Assembly (NCBI GenBank): GCA_002085375.1 | Contig: NATP01000002.1 | Location: forward strand, 1 to 33,057 | Origin: a candidate division Zixibacteria bacterium 4484_95 | GTDB lineage: Bacteria > Zixibacteria > MSB-5A5 > UBA10806 > 4484-95 | Length of the DNA: 33,057 nucleotides | Reading direction: 5' to 3' | In this document: positions 9,735 to 23,434 of the stretch, piece by piece | How the letters are laid out: each line of letters starts with the position of its first letter | Numbering within the stretch: the first letter of the stretch is position 1 | The notes under the pieces: generated by a model | The model's input: the letters and a program-made list of their open reading frames with translations, nothing else | Database searches by the model: none | What the model was told of the DNA's origin: nothing | Made by a program: the position numbers and the translations under genes

Positions 9735-10805
9735 ATGATATATAGAACCCGTGATGAAAAATTGATGGCGATGGCGTTAAGGCTTGCTGTGAAAGGTTTG
9801 GGAGAAACCTCACCCAATCCGGTTGTGGGTTGCCTGTTGTATAAAAATGGACATATAATCGCCAAAGATTACCACCATAAAGCCGGTCAACCCCATGCAG
9901 AAGTTCTGGTGCTCAGAAAAGCCGGGGTTGAAGCATCGGGAGCGACTATGTATGTAACCCTTGAACCCTGTTCTACCTATGGGCGAACGCCACCATGCAC
10001 CGAGGAAATCATCAAAGCCAAAGTAAGAAAAGTAATCATTGGAACTATTGACCCGAACCCAAAAATCAACGGTCGTGGTGTGCAAGCATTGAAAAAAGCC
10101 GGAATTGAGGTTGTAACCGGTGTCATAAAAGAAGAATGTAAAAAAATAAATGTAGCTTATAATAAATTTATAACAACTAAATTGCCTTTTGTAACAGTAA
10201 AATTTGCCCAGAGTCTTGATGGTCGTATCGCCACCCAGAACGGCTCCTCGCAATGGATATCATCTCAGCAATCGCTGAAATTTGCTCACTGTTTGCGCGC
10301 TCAAAACGATGCGATATTGGTCGGCGCTAACACCGCCAACAGGAATAACCCACAGCTTACTGTCAGGCTGGTTAAAGGCAGAAATCCAGTTAGAATAATC
10401 CTTTCAGAATCGGGGCAAGTTAAAAAGAACCTCAAGCTCTTTACCGATAAAAACGCGCCTACGATACTTGCAACATCCCGCAAGGCTAGGATTGATTTTG
10501 ATGTGGAGAAAATATTGTTACCCAAAAGATCGAAAGGATTGAATCTTGAAACCCTTTTAAGGAAACTTTCTGATAGAGATATCATGTCTCTTCTTGTTGA
10601 GGGTGGAGCGATGGTGATAACAAGTTTCTTGAAACAAAACATGGTTGATAGGATTATTGTTATCGTTGCCCCGATTTTGATTGGTCGGGGAGTTGAGGCT
10701 GTAACTGATTTACATATAAAAGATATCAGTCAAGCCTTGAAATTAAAAAACGTTGAGTACAAGAAAATGGGTTCTGACTTTGTGGTTTTCGGAGATTTGA
10801 ACTGA
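9735..10805 (+). CDS. ribD: Bifunctional riboflavin deaminase/reductase RibD
   Basis: A 356-residue bifunctional enzyme for the second and third steps of riboflavin synthesis: deamination of the diaminopyrimidine produced from GTP, then reduction of its ribosyl side chain. The N-terminal CMP/dCMP-deaminase domain has the zinc site HAE (His54, Glu56 as proton shuttle) and PCSTYGRTPPC (Cys79 and Cys88). The C-terminal dihydrofolate-reductase-like domain starts near residue 155 (PFVTVKFAQSLDGRIA) and includes the LVEGGA segment near the end. It is the first gene after the FMN riboswitch, and its TGA directly abuts the ATG of ribE. Confidence 0.96.
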   Translation: MIYRTRDEKLMAMALRLAVKGLGETSPNPVVGCLLYKNGHIIAKDYHHKAGQPHAEVLVLRKAGVEASGATMYVTLEPCSTYGRTPPCTEEIIKAKVRKVIIGTIDPNPKINGRGVQALKKAGIEVVTGVIKEECKKINVAYNKFITTKLPFVTVKFAQSLDGRIATQNGSSQWISSQQSLKFAHCLRAQNDAILVGANTANRNNPQLTVRLVKGRNPVRIILSESGQVKKNLKLFTDKNAPTILATSRKARIDFDVEKILLPKRSKGLNLETLLRKLSDRDIMSLLVEGGAMVITSFLKQNMVDRIIVIVAPILIGRGVEAVTDLHIKDISQALKLKNVEYKKMGSDFVVFGDLN

Positions 10806-11456
10806 ATGTTTACGGGTATAATACAGGAAATAGGTATTGTGAGGTTTGCGCAGAAGAAGGGTGACAGTCTGTTGATTCAAATTGAGTCGCCCAAGTCTTC
10901 GAAGTTGTTAAAAGTGGGTGGAAGTATCAATATAAACGGGGCCTGTCAGAGTGCGATTAAAATCTCACCTGTTTCAAGTGATTCAGGTAGCTGGTTTGAG
11001 GTTCAGGCTACTTCGGAAACCATTTCCCGCACCAACTTTAAGTTTCTTCAAGCTGGAGATAGGGTTAACCTTGAACTTCCGCTTTCCTTAAACGATCCCC
11101 TTGGTGGTCATCTTGTGACCGGCCATATCGATGATACCGGTCGGATAACGGATATTAAGCCCAGTGGTGGGAGCATCTTAATGCGTATTGTTTTCAAACC
11201 GGAATACAACTGCTACTTGGTTGAGAAAGGCTCTGTGGCTATTGATGGCATCAGTTTGACCGTTTTTGATGTCGAAACGGAATGTTTCACGATTTCACTT
11301 ATCCCCGAAACCATTGAACGGACAAATTTAAAATTTCGAAATATAGGGGATGTTGTTAACTTGGAGTTTGATCAAATTGGTAAATATATTGAGAAATTTA
11401 TGAAAAAAGATGGCAAAGGAATAACCATGGATTTTTTAAAAAGACATGGGTTTTAA
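10806..11456 (+). CDS. ribE: Riboflavin synthase, alpha chain
   Basis: A 216-residue enzyme that dismutates two 6,7-dimethyl-8-ribityllumazine molecules to riboflavin and the ribitylamino pyrimidine, usually as a homotrimer. It has the hallmark N-terminus [10 protein letters not shown] and two tandem lumazine-binding beta-barrel repeats. The second repeat begins around [14 protein letters not shown] and contains GISLTVFDV; a C-terminal helix follows. No gap separates it from ribD. Some naming schemes call this gene ribC. Confidence 0.95.
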
Positions 11457-11466
11457 GGGTGAAAAA

Positions 11467-12699
11467 ATGACTGATTTTGATGAAGTTTCAGAAGCCATTG
11501 AGGATATAAAGCAGGGTAAAATCGTCATCGTCTGTGATGATGAAGACCGCGAAAACGAGGGCGATATGATAATGGCCGCCCAAAAGGTTACTCCGGATGC
11601 GATAAATTTCATAAGCAAATATGCCCGGGGACTATTGTGCGTCCCACTACCCAATGAGAGATTGGAACAGTTGAGATTGGATCAAATGGTGACGGTCAAT
11701 ACCGCCAAGATGGGGACACGGTTTACCGTTTCGGTTGATTACCTGATAGGAACGACTACAGGCATATCGGCATTTGACCGGGCGGCCACCATAAAAGCTT
11801 TAGCTGATGATAAAACCAAGCCGGAGGATTTGGGCCGGCCAGGTCATATATTCCCTCTTCAGGCAAGAGATGGAGGAGTGCTTACCCGTGCCGGTCATAC
11901 CGAGGCTACTGTGGATTTATGTCGCTTAGCAGGCCTTAAACCGTATGGTGTTCTATGCGAGATACTTGATGATGATGGATCGATGGCAAGGGTACCACGT
12001 CTTATGGAACTTGCAAAAAAATATGATATGAAGATAGTAACGGTGAAGGACCTGATTGCATATCGCCGCCACCATGAAAAGTTTGTTAAGAGGGTTGAAA
12101 CTGTCCGGTTTCCTACGAAATTTGGTAGTTTCAAATTGCACCTTTACGAAAGTGCGATTGATGACCATCACCACTTAGTAATAGAGAAAGGCGAGGTGGC
12201 AGGCAAAAATAACGTGCTTGTAAGGGTGCACTCATCTTGCCTGACTGGTGATGTTTTCGGTTCCTGTCGATGTGATTGTGGGGACCAGCTGGCCGAATCG
12301 TTGAGAATGGTGGAAAAAGAGGGGTTGGGAGTGGTTTTATATATGCGTCAGGAGGGAAGAGGTATCGGTTTGGCTAACAAGATAAAAGCCTATAAGCTTC
12401 AGGACAAAGGTAAGGATACGGTTGAGGCCAATATAGAGCTGGGATTTGACCCGGATCTGCGTGATTATGGAATCGGCGCCCAGATATTAGTTGATATGGG
12501 ATTGTCAACTATAAGGCTTATAACAAATAATCCCAAGAAAGTGGTTGGTCTCAGCGGTTATGGATTGAAAGTTACCAGTCGGGTGCCCATGAATATCCCA
12601 CCCAATAAATTCAACGCCCGCTACCTCGAAACCAAACGCGATAAATTGGGTCATTTAATAGAAATCACCTCCTGTAATATTTTAAACGAAGGGGAATGA
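11467..12699 (+). CDS. ribBA: RibBA: DHBP synthase / GTP cyclohydrolase II
   Basis: A fused enzyme of 410 residues supplying both riboflavin precursors. The N-terminal DHBP synthase domain (about 1-200) converts ribulose-5-phosphate to dihydroxybutanone phosphate and carries [10 protein letters not shown] (from Asp24) and the RAGHTEA segment. The C-terminal GTP cyclohydrolase II domain (about 205-405) has zinc ligands Cys258, Cys269 and Cys271 in [15 protein letters not shown], and the RQEGRGIGL motif. An in-frame ATG at 11446 overlaps ribE, but AAGGG at 11455-11459, 7 bases before the ATG at 11467, favours the later start. Confidence 0.96.
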
Positions 12700-12700
12700 G

Positions 12701-13159
12701 ATGGAGATAGCAGGAAATTTAAATGCGTCGGGATTCAAGTTTGCCCTTGTCGTCTCCCGATTTAACGAGTTTTTCACAACCAAGCTTCTCGAGGGCACTC
12801 TTGATTGCCTTAAACGCCATGGTGCCTCTGAGAAAGATATTGATATCATCAGGGTGCCGGGTTCGTTTGAGATACCTTATGCCGCTTCAAAACTTGCCAG
12901 GGGTAAAAAATATGATGCTGTAATCTGCTTGGGTGTTATTATTCGCGGTCAGACGCCACATTACGAGTATGTCTCAAGCGAGGTTGCTAAAGGGATTGCC
13001 AGGATATCTCTTGAGAACGAACTGCCGGTAATATTTGGTATAGTCACAGCTGATACATTAGAGCAGGCGATTGAACGTTCTGGATCAAAGTCAGGCAACA
13101 GGGGATTTGCAGCAGCCTTGACGGCAATAGAGATGGTCAATTTGTTCAGAGAGATTTAA
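12701..13159 (+). CDS. ribH: 6,7-dimethyl-8-ribityllumazine synthase
   Basis: A 152-residue lumazine synthase that condenses dihydroxybutanone phosphate with the ribitylamino pyrimidine; usually a pentamer or 60-subunit capsid. Diagnostic parts are [17 protein letters not shown] near the N-terminus, [11 protein letters not shown], the catalytic-histidine segment TPHYEYV, and [11 protein letters not shown]. It begins one base after the ribBA stop and completes the four-gene riboflavin pathway in the order ribD-E-BA-H seen in Bacillus-type operons. Confidence 0.96.
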
Positions 13160-13162
13160 TTT

Positions 13163-13576
13163 ATGGGCCAGAGGCATAAGGCGCGTTGTACCGTCTTGGA
13201 TCTTTTATACTCGATTGAAATCGGTAATAAGGATAATATAGAGGAAAATTTAAGATATTGTGCTTCCTTACACAAGTTAAACGCCGATGGTTTTGATTTT
13301 GCCAAAAAGCTGTTTAATGTTATCAATGAGAATATCGACGCAATCAATAGTATTCTCGAAAAGCATGTAAAAAACTGGGCTATTAACCGTCTGGCAATTG
13401 TCGATAAAAATATTTTAAGACTCGGTATTGGTGAGATAAAATATCTTCCCGATGTACCGGTTAAAGTAGCGATAGATGAGGCTATCGAGCTGGCTAAAAA
13501 ATATGGTTCTGCCGATTCGGGAAGATTTGTAAATGGTATTCTTGATGCTGTATTCAATGATGATAGGCAAGTTTAA
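13163..13576 (+). CDS. nusB: Transcription antitermination factor NusB
   Basis: A 137-residue all-helical protein of the NusB family, which pairs with ribosomal protein S10 on boxA RNA during rRNA transcription and lambda-type antitermination. The N-terminus (QRHKARCTVLDLLYSIEIG) and the C-terminal signature (ILRLGIGEIKYLPDVPVKVAIDEAIELAKKYG...FVNGILDAV) are typical. It starts 3 bases after ribH; ribH-nusB adjacency is widespread in bacteria. It probably shares the riboswitch-controlled transcript unless there is an internal promoter that I do not see. Confidence 0.94.
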   Translation: MGQRHKARCTVLDLLYSIEIGNKDNIEENLRYCASLHKLNADGFDFAKKLFNVINENIDAINSILEKHVKNWAINRLAIVDKNILRLGIGEIKYLPDVPVKVAIDEAIELAKKYGSADSGRFVNGILDAVFNDDRQV

Positions 13577-13619: not shown

Positions 13620-13644
13620 GACCCGTATAGCGGGTCTATGTTTT
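13620..13644 (+). terminator. Hairpin with short T-tract, terminator or leader structure
   Basis: GACCCG (13620-13625) pairs perfectly with CGGGTC (13631-13636) around a 5-base loop, followed by TATGTTTT. It could end the rib-nusB transcript. Because it also lies in the probable leader of the methyltransferase gene, it could instead affect translation. The T-tract is short. Confidence 0.4.
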
Positions 13645-13648
13645 GATT

Positions 13649-14383
13649 ATGAAAACGAGAATAGAAGAAGAGGTCGAAGTTTTTGATGAAACAGCCGCCT
13701 ATGATGAATTGATGTCCCGACCGTATACCAGGTATTTGAAAAAAAAGATAGATGATTGCCTTTCATCGTTAAGTATTAAAAACGCTGTTATTTTTGAACT
13801 CGGCTGTGGCGTTTCCGAGCATACAGATTTATTTAAAAAGGATAATTATCTTGTCCTTTCCGATATCACCTATTCGCTTTTAAAACGCAACGATCCTGAT
13901 TGCGGACGGGTAGTTGCCGATGCTCAGGTTCTGCCGTTTAAATCGGGGATGTGTGACCTGGTAATATGTCTGGGCATTCTCCATCATCTACCTGACCAGT
14001 ATGCTTCTTTAACTGAGGTGGGAAGAGTATTGAAACCGGGCGGTAGGATATTTATTCAAGAACCACATCGGATGAGTCTTAACTTTTTTTACCACTATGG
14101 ACGACGCCTTTTCATGAAACTGTTCGGAGTGGAAAAAGTAAAAAAAATGATTGGTTGTTTTTCTCCGGAGGAGTGGCAGCTTGATGTCAAAGCCCTGAAA
14201 AGAGCTTTTAAACATGGTTATACGTTCAAGAGGTGGACGATATTGACATTCAGACTGCCTCCATTTAGAATATTTAAAAAATGGAAACTTGATGTATCGT
14301 TGTCGAAATTTTTCGACCGTTTACCTGTGTTCAAACATTTCGGAACTACAATTTTTTATGAGGTGATTAAGAAGGAACGCTGA
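13649..14383 (+). CDS. SAM-dependent class I methyltransferase
   Basis: A 244-residue methyltransferase. The nucleotide-binding motif ELGCG is followed by an acidic residue in LVLSDITYSLL, the ADAQVLPFKSGMCDLVICLGILHHL segment (motifs II-III of the Methyltransf_11 type) and RVLKPGGRIFIQEPHR. The C-terminal third is basic and hydrophobic. The substrate is unknown; its place at the head of a glycosyltransferase cluster suggests a sugar, lipid carrier or glycan. I chose ATG 13649, but TTG 13643 is also in frame; neither has a clear ribosome binding site. It overlaps the next gene by one base. Confidence 0.8.
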   Translation: MKTRIEEEVEVFDETAAYDELMSRPYTRYLKKKIDDCLSSLSIKNAVIFELGCGVSEHTDLFKKDNYLVLSDITYSLLKRNDPDCGRVVADAQVLPFKSGMCDLVICLGILHHLPDQYASLTEVGRVLKPGGRIFIQEPHRMSLNFFYHYGRRLFMKLFGVEKVKKMIGCFSPEEWQLDVKALKRAFKHGYTFKRWTILTFRLPPFRIFKKWKLDVSLSKFFDRLPVFKHFGTTIFYEVIKKER

Positions 14384-16812
14384 TGAAACTTTACAAAGAC
14401 AAGATTTTTTTGGTATTTGGCATTGTCGCTGGACTTTTTAGCCTTGTTATTTATTATCTCACCAAAGCTCCAACATTGTCTTTCTGGGATTGTGGTGAGT
14501 TTATAGCCTGTGCAAATATATTGGGTATTCCGCATCCGCCGGGGACACCGCTATATGTCCTTATTGGAAGGTTCTTTACTCTTTTACCATTGCCTTTCAA
14601 TGATGCTGTGAAGGTTAATATCATCAGTGTCATCTCATCAGCCATAGCTGTCTTTGTCGCTTACTGGCTGATAATACGTCTCATTATAGGATTTAAGGAT
14701 GAAAAATTGAGTTTGTGGAGAAAGCTGGCTCTATCAGTAGGCGGTTTTTCAGGTAGTTTGGTGTTGGGTTTTTCATCGACATTCTGGGATAATGCTATTG
14801 AGGCCGAAGTCTATGGGCTGTCGATGATGCTGATACTGATTCTTTGCTATATATTATTGATATGGTCCAACAGGATTGGCCAGCCTGGTTCCGGCAAGTA
14901 TATTGTGGCGATAACATATCTAGCATTTTTAGGAATTGGAATCCATATGACCACCTTTTTAGTGGTGCCCGTTTTGGTTCTTTATATGGCAATCAAAGAC
15001 AGATCTTTGTTAACCGATTGGCGATTCTGGTTAGTTTGGATAATATTGATGATGATAATGAGTTTTCTGGATATTTTTCTGTATGGTGTGGCTGTCCTTC
15101 TTGTCGTATCGGGAATACTTGTATTTACCGCCAAAAGGAGTCCTTATATGCTAAGGTTAGTTTTTGCCTTGACCTTAGCAACGGTTATAGGTTATTCCAC
15201 TCACCTTTATCTTCCAATCAGAGCTCAGCTAAAACCGGCAATTAACGAGAATAACCCCAGTGACTGGCAGAGATTTAAGTCGCTTTTGGAGCGTAAACAA
15301 TATGGCCAGGAATCGATGATTACCCGAATGTTTCATCGCCGCGGTTCTTGGTCCAACCAGTTTGGAGTTCATCCGCATATGGGGTTTTGGGGTTATTTCA
15401 GAGAGCAATATTCAAAACTATGGGCAGCATTTTTATTTTTTGCTATAGGGATATGGGGAATTTATGAAGCTATTCGGCGGGATAGAATAAACGGTGTATG
15501 GATGTTGCTTTTATTTTTAATCTCATCATTGGGATTGGTGTTGTATTTGAATTTTTCAGATGGGACCCGTGGAGCTATCCTCGAAGTCCGCAACAGAGAT
15601 TACTTTTTCACTCCGGGCTTTATGTTTTTTGCATTATTTATAGGTGTGGGTTTAACCGGTCTCTTAAGTGATCTCTCTGCATGGATTAAGGGAAAACCTG
15701 TGCGAAAGGGCCTTTTTATATTAGCTTTGGTGGTTACTTTATTTTTTCCAATTCATACTCTTATGGCAAATTATTTTGTTCATGACCGTTCCAAGAATTT
15801 CATCCCTTGGGATTACGCCTATAACATTCTTATTTCAGTTGATAAAGACGGTGTAGTTTTTACCAATGGTGATAACGATACTTTCCCATTGTGGTATCTC
15901 CAGGAGGTGGAGAAAATTCGTACGGATGTAAAGGTTGTCAATTTGAGTCTTTTGAATACTCCCTGGTATATTCACCAGCTGAAGGACCAGATGGGTGTAC
16001 CGATCAGTTATTCTTATGAGGAAATAGAAAACCTCCGACCGATATGGCTTCCCGACAAGGAGAAAGTATGGAAGGTCCAAGACCAGATGATTCGTCATAT
16101 AATTCAGACTAATAAATGGAAGATTCCAATATATTTTGCTGTGACCGTTTCAACTGCCAACAAACTTGGTCTTGATGATTATATGATAATGGAGGGCATG
16201 GCTTATAGGGTGGTTCCTACCAAGGGGAAGAATAGAATCAACCTTGATTTGATGTGGAAGCGTTATATGGAGGAGTGTAAGTTCCGAGGACTTAACGATC
16301 CCACCGTATACAAAGGTGAAAACGATAATCGGCTTATAGCGAATTATGTGTCGGGATTTTTACAGCTAGCTGATACATTAAGGAACGCAGGACAGATAGA
16401 AAAAGCAATTAAAGCTGCTCGTAAGGGAGTAGAAATTTATCCTAATGAGTGGCGGTCAAGAGCTTATCTTGCTGGGCTATATGTTTTAGCTGGATATACC
16501 GATAGTATAGATAGTGTAGTAGAGGGTTTTAAATCTGGTGATATTGAGAAGATTTATATAAATGCGGCCAGGGAACTTATACTTAAACAAAAATGGGAGG
16601 AAAGCAAACCTCTTTTGTATAAAGCACTTCATTATAACCCAAAGTCGAGGATGGCATTCAACAACTTAATGATAGTGGAAAATCAAGTTAATAATTACCG
16701 TGCTGTTGATAGCCTTGCGGAAATGTGGCGTCAGCTTCATAAAGATAACCCTGCTGCACTTGCTGAGCTTGAAAATCTTTTAAAAGCGCTGGAAGACCGC
16801 CGGGAGAATTAA
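14383..16812 (+). CDS. DUF2723/TMEM260-type membrane glycosyltransferase
   Basis: An 809-residue polytopic membrane protein. The N-terminal segment SFWDCGEF...GIPHPPGTPLYVLIGRFF is the signature of DUF2723, the family of TMEM260, for which an animal member has been shown to be a protein O-mannosyltransferase. The Asp/Glu pair in WDCGEF in the first outer loop resembles the acidic motif of GT-C enzymes. Roughly a dozen membrane helices fill residues 7-470. A large soluble part follows, with FTNGDNDTFPLWYLQEVE near residue 490 and TPR-like helices (IKAARKGVEIYPNEWRSRAYLAGLY) at the end. By family it should transfer sugar from a polyprenyl-phosphate donor outside the membrane. The acceptor is not known. 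Confidence 0.82.
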   Translation: MKLYKDKIFLVFGIVAGLFSLVIYYLTKAPTLSFWDCGEFIACANILGIPHPPGTPLYVLIGRFFTLLPLPFNDAVKVNIISVISSAIAVFVAYWLIIRLIIGFKDEKLSLWRKLALSVGGFSGSLVLGFSSTFWDNAIEAEVYGLSMMLILILCYILLIWSNRIGQPGSGKYIVAITYLAFLGIGIHMTTFLVVPVLVLYMAIKDRSLLTDWRFWLVWIILMMIMSFLDIFLYGVAVLLVVSGILVFTAKRSPYMLRLVFALTLATVIGYSTHLYLPIRAQLKPAINENNPSDWQRFKSLLERKQYGQESMITRMFHRRGSWSNQFGVHPHMGFWGYFREQYSKLWAAFLFFAIGIWGIYEAIRRDRINGVWMLLLFLISSLGLVLYLNFSDGTRGAILEVRNRDYFFTPGFMFFALFIGVGLTGLLSDLSAWIKGKPVRKGLFILALVVTLFFPIHTLMANYFVHDRSKNFIPWDYAYNILISVDKDGVVFTNGDNDTFPLWYLQEVEKIRTDVKVVNLSLLNTPWYIHQLKDQMGVPISYSYEEIENLRPIWLPDKEKVWKVQDQMIRHIIQTNKWKIPIYFAVTVSTANKLGLDDYMIMEGMAYRVVPTKGKNRINLDLMWKRYMEECKFRGLNDPTVYKGENDNRLIANYVSGFLQLADTLRNAGQIEKAIKAARKGVEIYPNEWRSRAYLAGLYVLAGYTDSIDSVVEGFKSGDIEKIYINAARELILKQKWEESKPLLYKALHYNPKSRMAFNNLMIVENQVNNYRAVDSLAEMWRQLHKDNPAALAELENLLKALEDRREN

Positions 16813-16813
16813 A

Positions 16814-17929
16814 GTGGCTCGTATTCTCGCCGTTAACTGGCAGGATTTGAAACATCCTGCATCAGGTGGAGCTGAGATACACCTTGAGGAGATTTTAAGG
16901 AGACTTGTTAAACGGGGACACAAAATCGACCTTTTATGCTGTAATTTTCCGGGTGGTAAAAGAGAGGAAAATGTAGAAGGGGTAAATATAATTAGGCATG
17001 GTTCGAGAACTTTTTTTAATTATGTTGTTCCTCTGGTTTTAAGAAGTTTAATCAAAAAAAATAAGTATGATTTAATATTTGAGGATGTAAACAAAGTACC
17101 ATTTTACACTCCTCTTTACCATAAGTTACCAGTATTGGTGATATTCCACCATCTTTTTGGTGGTTCGATTTTTCGAGAGATAAACTTATTTTTGGGTATA
17201 TATATCTACTTATCAGAAAAGCCCGTTCCTTTATTTTATAAAAAAAATCATCTAATGGTTGTTTCGGAATCGACAGCTCAGGAGATAATTAGTAAGGGTA
17301 TATCCAAGAGCCATGTTCATGTTGTTCATAATGGTATCGACAAGGATGTTTATAATTTCGACAGCAACGTGACAAAGTTTGAAAGGCCTACTATTTTATA
17401 TGTTGGGCGCATAAAAAAATATAAATCGATTGAGACAGCGATTGATGCCATGCCTGGTATATTACAGCGTTTACCAGAGGCGAAATTGGTTATAATCGGG
17501 ACTGGTGACCATTTACCAGTTCTTAAAGAGTACGTAAAGAGAAAACGGCTTACTGACTTCATCGAACTTGAGGGATTTGTGTCGCAGGAGACCAAGATTG
17601 AATATTACAGGAGGTCACACCTTTTGGTTTATCCATCTTATAAAGAGGGCTGGGGTTTAACCAATATTGAGGCGAATGCTTGTGGTACAACTGTTTTGGC
17701 CTCTCGGGTGCCAGGCCTTCGCGATTCAGTCGATGAAGGGAAATCAGGCCTATTATTTGAATATGGAAATGTGAATGAGTTTGTCGAGAAAGTATTAAAA
17801 ATATTAACTGATAATGACTACAGGTCACAACTTGAGAAAGGTGCTTTGGTACATGCTTCCAAATTTTCCTGGGACAAAACCACCGATAAAACCGAGAATC
17901 TAATGGAGCTTATTCTCTCTGGAAAATGA
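16814..17929 (+). CDS. Glycosyltransferase family 4
   Basis: A 371-residue GT-B fold enzyme. The N-terminal acceptor domain begins with RILAVNWQDLKHPASGGAEIHLEE, a glycine-rich start common in GT4 proteins. The C-terminal donor domain opens with ILYVGRIKKYKS and contains the EX7E motif in EGWGLTNIE (Glu278 and Glu286). It uses a nucleotide-activated sugar in the cytoplasm; sugar and acceptor cannot be told from sequence. GTG start one base after the preceding stop. It overlaps the next gene in an ATGA arrangement. Confidence 0.88.
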   Translation: MARILAVNWQDLKHPASGGAEIHLEEILRRLVKRGHKIDLLCCNFPGGKREENVEGVNIIRHGSRTFFNYVVPLVLRSLIKKNKYDLIFEDVNKVPFYTPLYHKLPVLVIFHHLFGGSIFREINLFLGIYIYLSEKPVPLFYKKNHLMVVSESTAQEIISKGISKSHVHVVHNGIDKDVYNFDSNVTKFERPTILYVGRIKKYKSIETAIDAMPGILQRLPEAKLVIIGTGDHLPVLKEYVKRKRLTDFIELEGFVSQETKIEYYRRSHLLVYPSYKEGWGLTNIEANACGTTVLASRVPGLRDSVDEGKSGLLFEYGNVNEFVEKVLKILTDNDYRSQLEKGALVHASKFSWDKTTDKTENLMELILSGK

Positions 17930-18942
17930 AAAAGGTTCGTTGGAATGTCTTTATAGGTCTTTTTATAAGCCTTATACTTGTGATTTATATACTAAGTAGG
18001 GTTGATTATGAGGAGGTGGCAAACGCCTTTTCAGGGGCTTCATATATTTGGACCATACCCACAATGTTGGGAGGGTTATTTGCTATGTGGATAAGGGCTA
18101 TTCGCTGGCGGTGGCTTTTAAAACCTGTAAGGTTATTGAAAATTCACACGTTGTTCTCATCTGTGATGATAGGTTTTATGGCCAATAACCTTCTACCCGC
18201 TCGTATTGGCGAGCTAGTAAGAGCAATATCGCTAAGCAAGAAACATCAGTTGAGTAAATCATCGGTATTTGCCACTGTTGTTGCAGAAAGGGTTTTTGAC
18301 AGTATTGGGTTGTTAATAGTATTCTGGTTAAGCTTTTTTTTTATAGATTATCCTGAAGAGCTTAAGAAAGCCGGGTTTTTTATATTTATATTTATCTGTT
18401 TGATTATGGTTTTTCTTTATCTTCTAAAGATGAAAACTGACTTAGGAGTTAGATTAATCTGCAAGCCGTTAGCAAGATTCTCCGTAAAACTCTCGACAAA
18501 GGTTGAATCTATCCTGAGGAAATTTGCAATTGGTTTATCTGTGTTAACCACTCCATCATCAATAATCATCATTCTATTGATTTCAATTTTTCTCTGGATT
18601 TTCACCGGTCTGACAGGTTATTTGATATTTATTGCATTTGGCCTGTATCCGGAAATCTGGGCTGCTTTTATACTTCTGTTCGTTTCGGTTTTGGCTGTAT
18701 CGTTACCCTCCTCGCCGGGTTATGTTGGCACTTTTCATGCCGCTTGCATTATCGCTTTTAACCTTATAAGTTCATTGGGGATGTTCAACCAGGAGATATC
18801 CAAATCGGTGGCCTTATCTTACTCGGTGGTCTTATGGTCATGCCAGTTTTTCCCGGTAACTATAATCGGGTTGTATTATTTGAAAAAGGAACATTTGAGG
18901 TTTAAGGATATTAAAAAAAAGCAAGTTTTAACTGGACAATAA
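17926..18942 (+). CDS. AglD/LPG-synthase-type flippase-like membrane protein
   Basis: A 338-residue protein with about eight membrane helices, of the UPF0104/AglD family (lysylphosphatidylglycerol synthase transmembrane region). Typical features are WIRAIRWRWLL near residue 56, FMANNLLPARIGELVRA around residue 85, VVAERVFDSIGL, and SLPSSPGYVGTFHA near the C-terminus. Relatives have been linked to lipid or glycolipid translocation and, in archaea, to N-glycosylation. Overlapping the GT4 gene and lying next to a polyprenyl-P-sugar synthase, it may move a lipid-linked sugar across the membrane; this is inference. Confidence 0.83.
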   Translation: MKKVRWNVFIGLFISLILVIYILSRVDYEEVANAFSGASYIWTIPTMLGGLFAMWIRAIRWRWLLKPVRLLKIHTLFSSVMIGFMANNLLPARIGELVRAISLSKKHQLSKSSVFATVVAERVFDSIGLLIVFWLSFFFIDYPEELKKAGFFIFIFICLIMVFLYLLKMKTDLGVRLICKPLARFSVKLSTKVESILRKFAIGLSVLTTPSSIIIILLISIFLWIFTGLTGYLIFIAFGLYPEIWAAFILLFVSVLAVSLPSSPGYVGTFHAACIIAFNLISSLGMFNQEISKSVALSYSVVLWSCQFFPVTIIGLYYLKKEHLRFKDIKKKQVLTGQ

Positions 18943-19158
18943 CTGGTGGGATGTTAACCATTGAAAATGGGAGTAAAGGTGTTCGGGAATGTTCTGAAAG
19001 ATATTGACATAAAATCAGTAATAAGATATAATAATTCTTTGTGGTTTCATGTATTGAAAGTTGAGCAAAGTTACGCCAAGCAAAGTCTGTTTGGCTAGTT
19101 AGACCCTGATACCACATGGAATAGGGTAATTGATGGAATTGTAGTAAAAAGGGACAAT
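18943..19158 (+). other. Intergenic leader of the second glycan transcript
   Basis: This 216-bp stretch contains no gene. It holds the promoter above, a repeated AGCAAAGT octamer (two copies near 19065 and 19080), a hairpin GCCAA/TTGGC, and a weaker ACCCT (19103-19107) to AGGGT (19123-19127) pairing. I found no riboswitch class or tRNA that fits it. Confidence 0.5.
19004..19032 (+). promoter_or_regulatory. Strong sigma70 promoter
   Basis: Consensus TTGACA (19004-19009) and consensus TATAAT (19027-19032) with the optimal 17-base spacer, in the only long gap of the glycan cluster. The leader to the next start is about 120 bases and contains a GCCAA/TTGGC hairpin (19075-19095). Confidence 0.75.
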
Positions 19159-20115
19159 GTGGTCGAAGAAAGATCTTGTGATATATCCGTAATTATACCG
19201 GTATATGACGAAGAAAGTAATGTTCCCTTGCTTTATCCGAAACTAAAGAATGTTTTGGATAAGCTTGGCAAGAACTACGAAATCGTTTATATCGATGATG
19301 GAAGTAGAGATAACACCTTCAACGAATTATCCCGATTACACGCTCAGGATAATAGGGTCCGTGTAATACGCTTTTCAACTAATTTTGGGAAATCAGCTGC
19401 TTATGCCGCTGGTTTCAGATTTGCCATTGGAGATGTCATTATTACTATGGATGGAGATTTACAAGATGATCCGGAAGATATCCCGCTCCTGCTGGGTAAA
19501 ATTAAAGAAGGGAACGATCTTGTTGTGGGATGGAAATACGAGGGGAGAGGACCTAAAAGCAAGTCGATACCATCATGGCTTTTTAATAAAGTTACCCCTT
19601 TGTTAACTCGTATGAAGATTCATGATATGAATTGTCCTTTTAAAGGTTATCGTAAGCATGTAGCTAAAAATCTAGCGGATAAAATATATGGTGAATTATA
19701 TCGATATTTACCGTTAATAGCTAGAAATAGGGGGTATAGAATAGAAGAGGTAAAAGTGAGAAACTTACCACGACAATACGGCCAGAGTAAGTATGGTGTG
19801 TCAAAATTTCTAAAGGGGTTTCTGGATTTCCTTACCATATTGTTTTTGACCCGATTTACAATGAGTCCACTATATTTTTTTGGTACAATTGGTTTAATTT
19901 CTACTTTGATTGGTGGAACTATTGTATTGTTATTATACATTCAAAAGTTCTTTTTTGGTATAAACGTAGGCAACTACATGCCCCTATTCACCCTATCAAT
20001 CCTTATGGTCATTTTTGGGGTTCAATTCATTTCCATTGGGTTACTTGGGGAAATGATAGTCCAAAAAGATAGAGCCCATGCTGATGATTATACAATCGAG
20101 ACGATATTGAAATAG
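19159..20115 (+). CDS. GT2 polyprenyl-phosphate glycosyltransferase (GtrB/DPMS-like)
   Basis: A 318-residue protein with an N-terminal GT-A domain and two C-terminal membrane helices (about residues 230-260 and 270-300), the GtrB/DPMS-like layout. SVIIPVYDEESNV and YIDDGSRDNT bind the nucleotide sugar, and the DGDLQDDP segment includes the metal-binding DXD-type motif. Such enzymes move mannose or glucose from GDP or UDP to undecaprenyl or dolichol phosphate, supplying donors for extracytoplasmic GT-C enzymes. The DUF2723 protein four genes upstream is the obvious candidate user. Start GTG 19159, with AAGGGA four bases upstream. Confidence 0.88.
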   Translation: MVEERSCDISVIIPVYDEESNVPLLYPKLKNVLDKLGKNYEIVYIDDGSRDNTFNELSRLHAQDNRVRVIRFSTNFGKSAAYAAGFRFAIGDVIITMDGDLQDDPEDIPLLLGKIKEGNDLVVGWKYEGRGPKSKSIPSWLFNKVTPLLTRMKIHDMNCPFKGYRKHVAKNLADKIYGELYRYLPLIARNRGYRIEEVKVRNLPRQYGQSKYGVSKFLKGFLDFLTILFLTRFTMSPLYFFGTIGLISTLIGGTIVLLLYIQKFFFGINVGNYMPLFTLSILMVIFGVQFISIGLLGEMIVQKDRAHADDYTIETILK

Positions 20116-20205: not shown

Positions 20206-20805
20206 ATGCCAGGTGAGAAAAGAAAAGTTTTAGTTATCACGCATAATTATCCAATTCCGGATTTCCCACGTGCAATTGGTCCATTTGTAGGTGTGTTAGT
20301 TGAGAATCTAGCAAAGCATTTTCATATGATAGTGTTGGCTCCCAGGTACAGGAATCCATCCTCTGAAAGAAACGGAGTGAAACTGGAGTATTTCGGATAT
20401 TCGTTTAAATCCTGGGAAAAGCTATCATATACGGGACACCTTTTTGCGAAGGTAAGAGGATTTAGACTACATTACCAGTTTTTGGCTTTCTGTTACTTGA
20501 TCTCGAATGTTTTAAAAAGCCTGATTATCGTGAAAAGAGAAAAACCTGATCTTATTCATAGCCAATGGTTTGTGCCTAATGGCCTAGTGGGGCATATAAC
20601 CTCCAGATTAACAGGTATTCCACATATAGTGACTATTCATAGTGACGCTTTTCTTGTTAAGAAAAACAGGATCTTACGTGCCGTTGCTAAAATGGTTTTT
20701 AAAAGGGCAAAACTTGTGATTGCTGTATCGCAGTCAGTAAAAGAGCATGTTGTTGATATTGCTCCTAGAGTGGAGGTGATTTACCCGTGCAACCAACTGT
20801 TCTAA
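20206..20805 (+). CDS. GT4 glycosyltransferase, N-terminal half (split gene)
   Basis: A 199-codon frame corresponding to the acceptor-binding half of a GT4 enzyme: VLVITHNYPIPDFPRAIGPFV at the start, PDLIHSQWFVPNG, GIPHIVTIHSDAF and VIAVSQSVKEHV. It reaches VEVIYP, where intact relatives continue into G(V/I)D...F, but here it reads CNQLF and stops. The donor-binding half follows in another frame (-1), starting inside this one. Either a frameshift with loss of about 20-25 linker residues, or a truly divided two-polypeptide enzyme. The nucleotide-sugar half is needed for catalysis. Confidence 0.75.
   Translation: MPGEKRKVLVITHNYPIPDFPRAIGPFVGVLVENLAKHFHMIVLAPRYRNPSSERNGVKLEYFGYSFKSWEKLSYTGHLFAKVRGFRLHYQFLAFCYLISNVLKSLIIVKREKPDLIHSQWFVPNGLVGHITSRLTGIPHIVTIHSDAFLVKKNRILRAVAKMVFKRAKLVIAVSQSVKEHVVDIAPRVEVIYPCNQLF
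20772..20780 (+). promoter_or_regulatory. Internal Shine-Dalgarno for the split GT4 C-half
   Basis: GGAGGTGAT is a near-perfect complement of the 16S rRNA 3' end and ends 6 bases before the GTG at 20787. It lies inside the coding sequence for RVEVIYP of the N-terminal half, so the C-terminal half could be translated independently or by coupling. Confidence 0.6.
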
Positions 20806-21350
20806 GCGTAGGAAGGTTGGTTCCCCGCAAGGGTCATATATATCTTATAGATGCTATCCATAAGCTGGTTGAACAGGGAATGGATATTAAACTCGTGATT
20901 GTTGGCAAGGGGCCCTTAGAACAAGCTATTCGTGAGAAGGCTAAAGGATTGAATTTTCGCCTGGAGCTTTATTTAAACAACCAAGAGCTTGAGAAAGAAT
21001 ATAAGAACGCTGACGTATTTGTGTTGCCTTCAATTACAGATGACCAGGGTGAAAAAGAAGGGCTGGGTCTTGTTATTTTGGAGGCCATGCACTTTAAGCT
21101 ACCTGTAATAGCATTTGACAATGGTGGAATACGCGAGGCTGTAATTGATGGCTATAACGGAATACTTTTACCTGAAAAAGATGTTGATGGCTTGGTCGCA
21201 GCCATAAAAAAGATTCTAACTGACAATGACTTACGCAAGCACTTGATTGAAACAGCTTACGAGGATGTTCACAAAAGGTTTTCGGTTGAAGCTATAATAA
21301 AACGGCATATTGATGTCTATAATAGTATAATTGGGGGTGCCAATCAATGA
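20787..21350 (+). CDS. GT4 glycosyltransferase, C-terminal donor half
   Basis: A 187-residue frame holding the nucleotide-sugar-binding Rossmann half of a GT4 enzyme: TVLSVGRLVPRKGHIYLIDAI at the start, VIVGKGPLE, VFVLPSITD, the EX7E-type motif in EKEGLGLVILEAM, and DNGGIREAVIDGYNGILLP. It starts at GTG 20787 within the last codons of the N-terminal half and has its own strong ribosome binding site. Without the other half it would lack the acceptor domain. The two would have to associate, as in divided systems such as Alg13/Alg14, or the gene is broken. Confidence 0.75.
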   Translation: MQPTVLSVGRLVPRKGHIYLIDAIHKLVEQGMDIKLVIVGKGPLEQAIREKAKGLNFRLELYLNNQELEKEYKNADVFVLPSITDDQGEKEGLGLVILEAMHFKLPVIAFDNGGIREAVIDGYNGILLPEKDVDGLVAAIKKILTDNDLRKHLIETAYEDVHKRFSVEAIIKRHIDVYNSIIGGANQ

Positions 21351-21371: not shown

Positions 21372-21509
21372 TTATCGCATAGTAGTAAACCGTATTTTAA
21401 AGGCGTATTATTGGCTTTTGTTCCGCTGACAATAATTATATGAAACAAGCTTACAAAAGTAAAACTGAGTATTATCAGCAATTCATCGGTTGAACTCTTG
21501 TGTGAGATA

Positions 21510-22388
21510 ATGTCGTATTCTGACTTAGATGGAAACTTATACAAGCACAAGATTTCTGTTTTGATAGTTACTTTCAACAACGCCCATACCATTATTGATT
21601 GTATCGATTCTCTGAAAAGGCAAAGTCTTAAAGATTTTGAAATATTGATAAGAGACAATAACTCAAAAGATTCAACTCTTGATTTGGTAAAACAATATAA
21701 TGATGTTGTTGTATATTCATCACAGAAAAATGAGGGATTTGCTCCGGCGGTAAACTATTTATCTTCAAAAGCAAAGGGTGAATATCTATTTATACTCAAT
21801 CCTGATTGTGTTTGTCCGCCAGAGACTCTTGAGGTCCTATACGAGTTTGAGCAAAAAAAAAATGGAGTGATATCACCGCTTCTGGTTTATCCTGATGGCC
21901 GGTTTCAACCATCAGCCAGAACATTTCCCGATTATAAAAATATACTGTTCTCTAGAAGGTCTCCTTTGTATATGCTGGGTCTAACAAGGGTAGATAAGGC
22001 GGGATATATACAGCCCGAAATGCCAACAAAGGTTCAGGCGGTATCGGCTACTGCACTATTTTTGGCTAAGAAGGTTTTCAATTCTGTGGGTGGTTTTGAT
22101 GAACGTTTTTTTTTGTATCTTGAAGACATTGACCTATGTTTGCGCCTTGGTGCCCGAGATATAGATATCTGGTATATGCCATCGCTAAAAATTCGGCATA
22201 GCCTGGGAGCAAGTTCCTCGAAATCTCGGGTCAGGTCTATGTATCATCATCACATCTCGATGTTAAAATATTTTAAAAAACATTTTCCCCGAAACCATGT
22301 AAAGAATTTTGTATTAACGTTATTATTGGCATTTGGCTTTTTAATTTCGTTGACATTCATGGTGCTTAGAATTAGAAAGAAGATATGA
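21510..22388 (+). CDS. GT2 glycosyltransferase (rhamnosyltransferase-like)
   Basis: A 292-residue GT-A enzyme resembling WbbL/RfbF-type rhamnosyl or galactofuranosyl transferases. Features are SVLIVTFNNAHTIIDCIDSL, IRDNNSKDST, the NPDC segment in place of a classic DXD, SATALFLAKKVFNSVGGFDERFFLYLEDIDLC (donor and acceptor loop), and one C-terminal membrane segment. The ATG at 21510 is preferred over the TTG at 21498 because the family usually begins a few residues before SVLIVTFN. It overlaps the next gene by 4 bases. The gap before it (21351-21509) holds only the 12-bp repeat. Confidence 0.85.
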   Translation: MSYSDLDGNLYKHKISVLIVTFNNAHTIIDCIDSLKRQSLKDFEILIRDNNSKDSTLDLVKQYNDVVVYSSQKNEGFAPAVNYLSSKAKGEYLFILNPDCVCPPETLEVLYEFEQKKNGVISPLLVYPDGRFQPSARTFPDYKNILFSRRSPLYMLGLTRVDKAGYIQPEMPTKVQAVSATALFLAKKVFNSVGGFDERFFLYLEDIDLCLRLGARDIDIWYMPSLKIRHSLGASSSKSRVRSMYHHHISMLKYFKKHFPRNHVKNFVLTLLLAFGFLISLTFMVLRIRKKI

Positions 22389-23434
22389 TCGAGATACCGG
22401 TATATGTAGTAATCAGCATCCTAAGTGGATATCTCTGTTATGTCTTTGTACCCATAGTCAAAAGGTATTGTGTTGACCATAAGTTATTCGATATGCCGGG
22501 GCCACGTAAGATACATACAGAACCGATACCACGCCTTGGTGGGGTAGCGATGTTTTTTGCTTACTCGCTGGGACTTATACCAGGATTTTTACTTTTACCC
22601 GACCTCTGGCAATCAAATGTCAAGCCTCTCGTTGGGATATATATTGGTGGTTTGATTATTTTCATACTTGGTGTGGTTGATGACATAAAAGGTGTAAGGC
22701 CAATTACCAAGCTTGCTTGGGAGATAATAGCCTGTCTGGTAGTGATTGCTTTCGGTGTTAGGCTGGATGTGGTTAATATCCCTTTCTATCGTCTTGTCGA
22801 AGTTGGCTGGTGGGGAATTCCACTTACTCTCATATGGTTGGTTGCTATCACCAATACGGTCAATTTAATTGATGGTATTGATGGGTTGGCCACGGGCGTG
22901 GGTGCTATTATCGCTATAAGCTTCCTCATCTTGAGTAAAATCATGGCTTTGCCTTTACCCTCGCTTTTAGCGGCTGGGATAATCGGGGTAACCATAGCTT
23001 TCTTAAAATACAATTACTTTCCCGCGTCGATCTTTATGGGTGATTCAGGGTCGTTATTTTTGGGTTATATTTTTGCTGTAATCTCTCTTTTCTGGCCAAA
23101 AAGTTTTGCTACGGTGGTTATGTTCATCCCGATTTTAGCTCTTGGAGTGCCTATTATCGAGGTCGTGACCACATTTCTCAGACGGCTTTTTACCAGACAG
23201 AAAATTTATATTGCCGACCAACGACATATTTTTCATATCTTGCTTGATATTGGAATCTCTCGAGAAGTAACGGTTTGGATTTTTTATCTGGTTAGCATTC
23301 AATTTGCTCTGATCACCTTTGCCATTACCGCTGGCAACCGTAATAATTTATTTGTATTACAATTTGCATTCATTATATTAACAGCCATCGTCATTTCCAG
23401 ATATCTGAAACGGGGAAAGGCGGGTGGAAAATGA
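22385..23434 (+). CDS. WecA/TagO-type polyprenyl-P sugar-1-P transferase
   Basis: A 349-residue membrane enzyme with about ten helices, of the MraY/WecA/TagO superfamily. It transfers a phosphosugar (commonly GlcNAc-1-P) from a UDP-sugar to undecaprenyl phosphate, starting lipid-linked glycan synthesis. Motifs are GPRKIHTEPIPRLGGVAMF, GVVDDIKGVRPITKLAWE, TVNLIDGIDGLATG, FMGDSGSLFLGY and DQRHIFH. MraY is unlikely, because the WecA-like LIDGIDGL and DxRHxFH motifs fit and no mur genes are nearby. It is the last gene of the glycan cluster and overlaps accA by 4 bases. Confidence 0.9.
   Translation: MIEIPVYVVISILSGYLCYVFVPIVKRYCVDHKLFDMPGPRKIHTEPIPRLGGVAMFFAYSLGLIPGFLLLPDLWQSNVKPLVGIYIGGLIIFILGVVDDIKGVRPITKLAWEIIACLVVIAFGVRLDVVNIPFYRLVEVGWWGIPLTLIWLVAITNTVNLIDGIDGLATGVGAIIAISFLILSKIMALPLPSLLAAGIIGVTIAFLKYNYFPASIFMGDSGSLFLGYIFAVISLFWPKSFATVVMFIPILALGVPIIEVVTTFLRRLFTRQKIYIADQRHIFHILLDIGISREVTVWIFYLVSIQFALITFAITAGNRNNLFVLQFAFIILTAIVISRYLKRGKAGGK

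Follow-up and report, generated by a model that had tools for sequence, protein, structure and literature searches.

We describe a block of glycosyltransferase (GT) genes in candidate division Zixibacteria bacterium 4484_95 (a 2.17 Mb draft genome, 85% complete) that we are somewhat inclined to see as the Zixibacteria form of an ancient gene set, shared across the Fibrobacteres-Chlorobi-Bacteroidetes (FCB) group, that serves the O-glycosylation of exported proteins. The block lies, all on the plus strand, in positions 1 to 33,057 of contig NATP01000002.1 (hereafter the window, the whole stretch of DNA that was analysed), and its central gene encodes a protein of the DUF2723 family (PF11028). 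The best reading of the module is periplasmic protein O-glycosylation working like eukaryotic O-mannosylation, a reading built on five kinds of observation: protein family, fold, motif conservation, the co-conservation of neighboring genes and the enrichment of a sequon in exported proteins. An earlier sequence-only reading had proposed such a module at 14383-20115, composed of the DUF2723 enzyme, a polyprenyl-phosphate-sugar synthase and a flippase-like protein; that idea is strengthened in substance by our analysis and corrected in detail. The three genes it named are real, and a complete GT4 gene that it overlooked stands among them:

14383..16812, plus strand: TMEM260/DUF2723-like GT-C protein of 809 amino acids (aa) with a C-terminal tetratricopeptide repeat (TPR)-like tail (PF11028, 164.6 bits)
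16814..17929, plus strand: complete cytoplasmic glycosyltransferase of family GT4 (GT-B, retaining type; PF00534, 133.2 bits)
17926..18942, plus strand: AglD-like / LPG_synthase_TM polytopic membrane protein, a candidate flippase (PF03706, 155.9 bits; TIGR00374, 94.3 bits)
19159..20115, plus strand: glycosyltransferase of family GT2 (ArnC/GtrB/DPMS group) with a C-terminal membrane segment, a candidate donor maker (assigned by PDB matches)

As the sequence-only reading had it, the DUF2723 protein is a GT-C enzyme that truly belongs to the TMEM260 family. Its PF11028 score far exceeds the family cut-off of 24.2 bits, and a single-sequence phmmer search of the PDB recovered human TMEM260 (9rql, E = 1.2e-16) as the only match other than TPR proteins and the sole match in the membrane and soluble parts. 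The alignment to 9rql spans the DxGE/HPPG region plus a later GD..L.Y..E.lR.D domain, with D36-C-G-E39 pairing with D-S-G-E of TMEM260 and HPPG with HPPG. An AlphaFold2 model of the protein (pLDDT 93.8, pTM 0.92) was compared with solved structures by Foldseek, and the nearest folds were PglB (best, E = 1.5e-6), the human oligosaccharyltransferase, the C-mannosyltransferase DPY19 and ArnT, all of them GT-C proteins; TMEM260 itself was absent from the fold-search matches (library to April 2026). In an alignment of 74 homologs with 27-46% identity to the window protein, W35 D36 C37 G38 E39, H51-P-P-G54, N79, R304, Q306, Y307, R403, R405, Y407 and D497-N-D-T500 (DNDT) are invariant in all 74. The acidic motif D36-x-x-E39 is placed in the first periplasmic loop of the predicted GT-C fold, and since it is kept in every homolog, the proposal of a working GT-C active site withstands modelling against known GT-C folds. 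The TPR-like tail is also borne out: Pfam TPR domains match weakly at about residues 659-697, and residues 646-808 of the model form a helical-repeat region. From these data the protein is almost certainly a GT-C glycosyltransferase that uses a polyprenyl donor, and its acceptor is likely a protein.

Our survey of gene neighborhoods revealed which genes accompany it. With the DUF2723 protein as the query we collected 80 loci that represent many phyla. All 23 homologs of the AglD-like protein in them are at most two genes away from DUF2723, with none among 749 more distant open reading frames (ORFs; P = 2e-12), and GT4 homologs lie within three genes in 19 of 22 (P = 1e-7). Within Zixibacteria, 113 of 130 genomes have a GT4 ortholog, nearly always in single copy, and for at least 55 of these genes the direct neighbor, on one contig and in one orientation with them, is a PF11028 match, a lower bound counted by eye from two coordinate lists. 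Among 20 further neighborhoods that we read, DUF2723 adjoins GT4 in 19 and the AglD-like gene is found in 18 (L131 was counted through its GT4 coordinates, where an antisense ORF hides the GT4, and L122 has no DUF2723 at that place). The order DUF2723-GT4-AglD is kept through Zixibacteria. The order in Calditrichota/KSB1 differs: DUF2723 is preceded by GT4 or a different GT2 and followed by the AglD-like gene, so the association of these genes survives rearrangement. The GT2 homologs, in the same loci, show no significant concentration near DUF2723 (P = 0.84), and given these position statistics together with its variable type we rejected the GT2 as a core partner. The gene set proposed earlier thus recurs across related genomes with a changed membership: its DUF2723 and AglD-like genes are core, its GT2 is not, and the conserved unit is DUF2723 + GT4 + AglD-like with the GT2 as a common but variable fourth member.

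Several smaller observations were made in these neighborhoods. A set of loci from Calditrichota/KSB1 and related groups (L017, L020, L026, L029, L033, L035, L039, L041 and L045) carries a different GT2 in the place of GT4, and there DUF2723 is separated from a Dpm1-like GT2 by DUF4837, purE, a pfkB-kinase and an rmlD-like gene (names taken from L026 alone). One contig titled 'Actinomycetota' (L027, JAACEJ010000124.1) shows the Calditrichota/KSB1 gene order, and the genome of the 'Ignavibacterium'-titled locus L018 (DYGG01000007.1) shares its PF11028 coordinates with the Zixibacteria genome G078; both titles look wrong.

The partner genes are consistent with roles in making and moving a lipid-linked sugar. 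The GT4 has invariant E278 and E286 (EX7E) and GGAE motifs in 18 orthologs. The AglD-like protein is, as had been proposed, an AglD-type membrane protein: its 338 aa hold a single PF03706 domain (residues 8-315) that scores well above the cut-off of 33.4 bits. Searches of PDB sequences with this protein, as a single sequence and as a profile, gave no match, so a fold comparison was needed; the best solved matches of its model are the MprF structures 7duw, 7f47 and 9j8s, with a probability of 1.00 and a best E of only 1.5e-3. This likeness would fit a lipid flippase. The window GT2 is indeed a GtrB/DPMS-like enzyme with a membrane segment, matching ArnC (9hwj, 8e-45), GtrB (5eke, 1e-36; also 5ekp) and the Pyrococcus furiosus dolichol-phosphate mannose synthase PfDPMS (5mlz, 1e-24) in the PDB. 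The GT2 of several other relatives is a soluble Dpm1-like protein whose best PDB match is the P. furiosus dolichol-phosphate mannose synthase, and the GT2 in the same family and order is 411-450 aa long with a charged N-terminal extension. In L127, L128, L132 and L134 the GT2 follows the AglD-like gene and its extension is a charged, low-complexity region of ~110-140 residues that is absent from the window GT2.

We also searched for PF11028 across whole genomes and found it in 131 of 133 Zixibacteria genomes (including all 79 good ones), in 118 of 118 Bacteroidota genomes from an even sampling of that phylum and in 41 of 41 Fibrobacterota genomes. Among 14 control genomes, which include E. coli, Caulobacter, Synechococcus, Thermus, Thermotoga, Lactococcus, Haloferax and Sulfolobus, only Bacteroides gave a match. 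The protein tree follows the phyla, with groups for Zixibacteria, Fibrobacterota, WOR-3, Latescibacteria, Bacteroidota-Chlorobi-Ignavibacteria, Calditrichota-KSB1 and Marinimicrobia, and the window protein falls with Zixibacteria. On this ground we rejected horizontal spread, and the gene looks like an old, vertically inherited one rather than an accessory locus. Some Fibrobacterota (G284:C2 and C19, G286:C19) carry two to three PF11028 genes in tandem, with open frames of ~620-720 aa versus the usual 850-1050 aa.

Independent evidence for O-glycosylation comes from the exported proteins. In Bacteroidota, exported proteins receive O-glycans at D-[S/T]-[L/I/V/T/A/S/M], with mannose as the usual link (PMC12871550). 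In 60 stretches of the source genome with predicted ORFs, we took as exported those proteins with an N-terminal hydrophobic segment and no later membrane segment and as cytoplasmic those with no hydrophobic segment, a crude signal-peptide rule, and computed the expected motif count from each protein's own composition. The motif D[ST][AILVMT] occurs 266 times in 94 exported proteins (36,951 residues) with 130 expected, a 2.05-fold enrichment (bootstrap 95% confidence interval 1.66-2.49). The corresponding ratio is 0.95 in cytoplasmic proteins, 1.02 for the reversed motif, 0.75 with Glu for Asp and 0.66 for D[ST] followed by a polar residue or G/P. When all 20 residues were scanned at the -1 position, Asp alone was clear (1.99), the next being His (1.35 on 35 sites). 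The +1 position favors L (3.0), V (2.2), T (2.0), S (1.6), M (1.5) and A (1.5) and avoids N, K and H. This profile is close to the experimental preference in Bacteroidota (PMC12871550), with isoleucine at +1 (1.15) weaker than in the Bacteroidota ranking. A second Zixibacteria genome gave 2.10 and named Bacteroidota loci 2.37 (only 13 proteins); mixed Zixibacteria loci gave 2.13 in exported proteins but 1.46 in cytoplasmic ORFs and are therefore a less clean set. The negative controls, few in number, were exported proteins of E. coli K-12 (1.07, 0.71-1.40) and the rhizobial megaplasmid S. meliloti pSymB (0.94). The source organism probably has Bacteroidota-like O-glycosylation, and the O-glycosylation proposed earlier is in this respect supported in part.

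The glycan neighborhood is wider than the span first proposed, which stands in part: a methyltransferase gene lies upstream and three further gene products follow up to 23434. The remaining features of the region are:

9735-13576, plus strand: ribD-ribE-ribBA-ribH-nusB, directly upstream of the methyltransferase/DUF2723 block
13643..14383, plus strand: class I S-adenosylmethionine (SAM) methyltransferase (PF08241, 55.8 bits), overlapping the start codon of the DUF2723 gene
20206..21350, plus strand: GT4 split over two frames (PF13439 and PF00534 halves)
21498..22388, plus strand: GT2, rhamnosyltransferase-like (PF00535, 96.9 bits; weak TIGR01556 match)
22385..23434, plus strand: WecA/MraY-type polyprenyl-phosphate sugar-1-phosphate transferase (PNPT; PF00953, 127 bits; TIGR02380, 85 bits, below its cut-off)
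past 23434, plus strand: accA, after the PNPT gene

The methyltransferase adjoins DUF2723 only in a few near relatives (e.g. loci L005, L127 and L133) and was rejected as a core member. The split GT4 consists of two overlapping ORFs in different frames, with the N-terminal half at 20206-20805 and the C-terminal half at 20787-21350; it is broken in this assembly, either because the genome has a frameshift there or because the assembly is wrong. The downstream GT2 (21498-22388) and the PNPT, an enzyme type that starts a polyprenyl-pyrophosphate-linked glycan, are kept in L127, L128, L132 and L134 of the same family and order. The nusB-DUF2723 junction is common to Zixibacteria and Fibrobacter loci (L010, L072, L076 and L115), a synteny across phyla.

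Taken as protein O-glycosylation, the module lends itself to a scheme in which we infer the sugar, its donor, the flipping, the transfer to the acceptor and the assignment of the sequon to the window paralog over the other three PF11028 genes of this genome. In the cytoplasm, the GT2 (Dpm1-like in relatives), the GT4 or both would load a sugar on a polyprenyl carrier, and the AglD/MprF-like protein, judging by its fold and co-conservation, would flip the lipid-linked sugar. The DUF2723 enzyme, with D36/E39 as its putative active site, would then move the sugar from a polyprenyl-phosphate-type carrier to Ser or Thr of proteins emerging into the periplasm. It would prefer D-[S/T]-hydrophobic sites, as its TMEM260 homology and the sequon suggest, and its TPR tail is likely the acceptor-binding part that helps present the acceptors. 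For the sugar itself we lean slightly towards mannose. GDP-mannose is plausible because the source genome has a ManC-like (mannose-1-phosphate guanylyltransferase-like) gene, which matches positions 3-353 of the 467 of a two-domain model with 290.8 bits, below the cut-off of that model. That the window DUF2723 gene is the one serving the D-S/T sequon we regard as an evenly balanced question.

Several points weigh against protein O-glycosylation by this gene set. Our literature search found no biochemistry for any bacterial PF11028 protein. The GT4 has no obvious place in an O-mannosylation scheme, the GT2 was not found beside the trio in several loci, and the nearby PNPT points to a polyprenyl-pyrophosphate oligosaccharide donor, not a simple polyprenyl-phosphate-mannose. 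The sequon result is silent on which gene is responsible, and the source genome has four PF11028 paralogs. Finally, four Bacteroidota genomes with PF11028 (G172, G244, G164 and G200) show no overall enrichment (0.61-0.95), so having PF11028 does not amount to having an enriched sequon. The sites of G172 are dense in a few exported proteins and depleted in the rest.

The additional paralogs and the four Bacteroidota genomes without enrichment would also be in keeping with Bacteroidota-type O-glycosylation that is present but performed by another enzyme, such as a Wzy/PglL-type ligase, a PMT-like protein or one of the other PF11028 paralogs, with the DUF2723-GT4-AglD set doing another job. Some relatives have PMT_2-domain proteins downstream of the cluster (L018). 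It is the window copy, however, whose synteny is strictly kept throughout Zixibacteria, which is what a housekeeping role would lead one to expect, and we consider this explanation unlikely, if a serious competitor. The other three PF11028 genes (C106:37610, C125:10342 and C147:450) apparently have no GT4, AglD-like or GT2 neighbors in the stretches read.

It is also rather unlikely that the DUF2723 protein is a GT-C enzyme decorating an envelope glycan or glycolipid (lipopolysaccharide, O-antigen or exopolysaccharide) in the manner of ArnT or Gtr systems, with proteins not the acceptors. The neighboring PNPT, GT2 and GT4 genes, the ArnT among the structural matches and the closeness of the GT2 to ArnC and GtrB in sequence would suit such a role. 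However, the DUF2723 protein is directly homologous in sequence to a proven protein O-mannosyltransferase and its best fold matches are protein oligosaccharyltransferases. Its near-universal retention in single or few copies and its vertical inheritance in three phyla are unlike variable glycan decoration, and the signal in exported proteins needs a protein glycosyltransferase somewhere. That the motif enrichment is a by-product of exported-protein folds we hold to be quite improbable: several of the top proteins have repeat-rich beta folds and the negative controls were only the two named above, but composition is controlled by deriving the expectation from each protein separately, the specificity for Asp and the E. 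coli control argue against it, the sites are scattered over unrelated proteins that include helical ones (a SurA-like peptidyl-prolyl isomerase has 14 in 541 aa), and the enrichment is still 1.79-fold with the top five proteins removed.

Protein O-glycosylation by the trio, if correct, bears on a gap in the field. According to a 2025 review, three parts of the Bacteroidota O-glycosylation system are undiscovered, namely its oligosaccharyltransferase (OTase), its ligase and the flippase for the core glycan; homologs of the eukaryotic O-mannosylation machinery are worth seeking and the origin of the system is in question (PMC12871550). Our literature search found no paper naming a Bacteroidota OTase and none mentioning DUF2723, and its GT117 matches were mostly unrelated. 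The locus supplies candidates for the missing transferase and flippase, plus a partner GT4. The biochemical class, a TMEM260-like GT-C, was already known; the novelty lies in the strict trio that it forms with the GT4 and AglD-like genes, in a PF11028 gene that hardly any genome of three whole phyla lacks and in a sequon signature that extends beyond Bacteroidota to Zixibacteria. Given the trio, the three-phylum presence and the sequon, PF11028 is a concrete, testable candidate for the missing enzyme of the field. We suggest, tentatively and as something short of an even bet, that PF11028 proteins are the missing transferase of general D-S/T O-glycosylation, a system ancestral to the FCB group including Zixibacteria, with animal TMEM260 O-mannosylation as its relative. 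If true, a human congenital-disease gene family (TMEM260) would be linked to a major bacterial glycosylation pathway.

The module has features of several known systems. Its membrane protein shares the PF03706 domain family and fold with archaeal AglD and the flippase domain of bacterial MprF, but has no fused catalytic domain, whereas AglD carries a GT2 and MprF a lysyl-transferase. The logic of a polyprenyl-phosphate-sugar synthase, a flippase and a GT-C enzyme is that of the three-component Gtr/pentofuranose system (PMC11127046), and the window GT2 is GtrB-like. Unlike that system, the flippase candidate is PF03706/MprF-like and not GtrA (SMR-like) or MATE, and the GT-C is of the TMEM260 family with a protein as its most likely acceptor.

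Human TMEM260 is the protein O-mannosyltransferase of the IPT domains of plexins, cMET and RON and belongs to CAZy family GT117 (PMC11292533). The window protein shares with it the PF11028 family, a polytopic GT-C architecture, D-x-G-E and HPPG after the first membrane helix and a soluble domain. In contrast to TMEM260 of the endoplasmic reticulum, it would sit in the bacterial inner membrane and is encoded with GT4, AglD-like and GT2 genes, and its predicted acceptors are not IPT domains but numerous exported proteins marked by a short sequon. The general O-glycosylation of Bacteroidota (B. fragilis, P. gingivalis and F. johnsoniae; PMC12871550) also has its sequon enriched in exported proteins, and every Bacteroidota genome that we sampled has PF11028; the linking sugar there is mannose (PMC12871550). 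The glycan of that system has a core of mannose, deoxyhexose and hexuronic acid, attached to Ser/Thr. For an LFG-type locus (metG, wzx and outer-glycan glycosyltransferases), a Pfam scan of the window proteins found no Wzx or MetG, the rest of the genome not having been searched. Although the window comes from another phylum, we hypothesize that its module works by the same mechanism as the Bacteroidota system.

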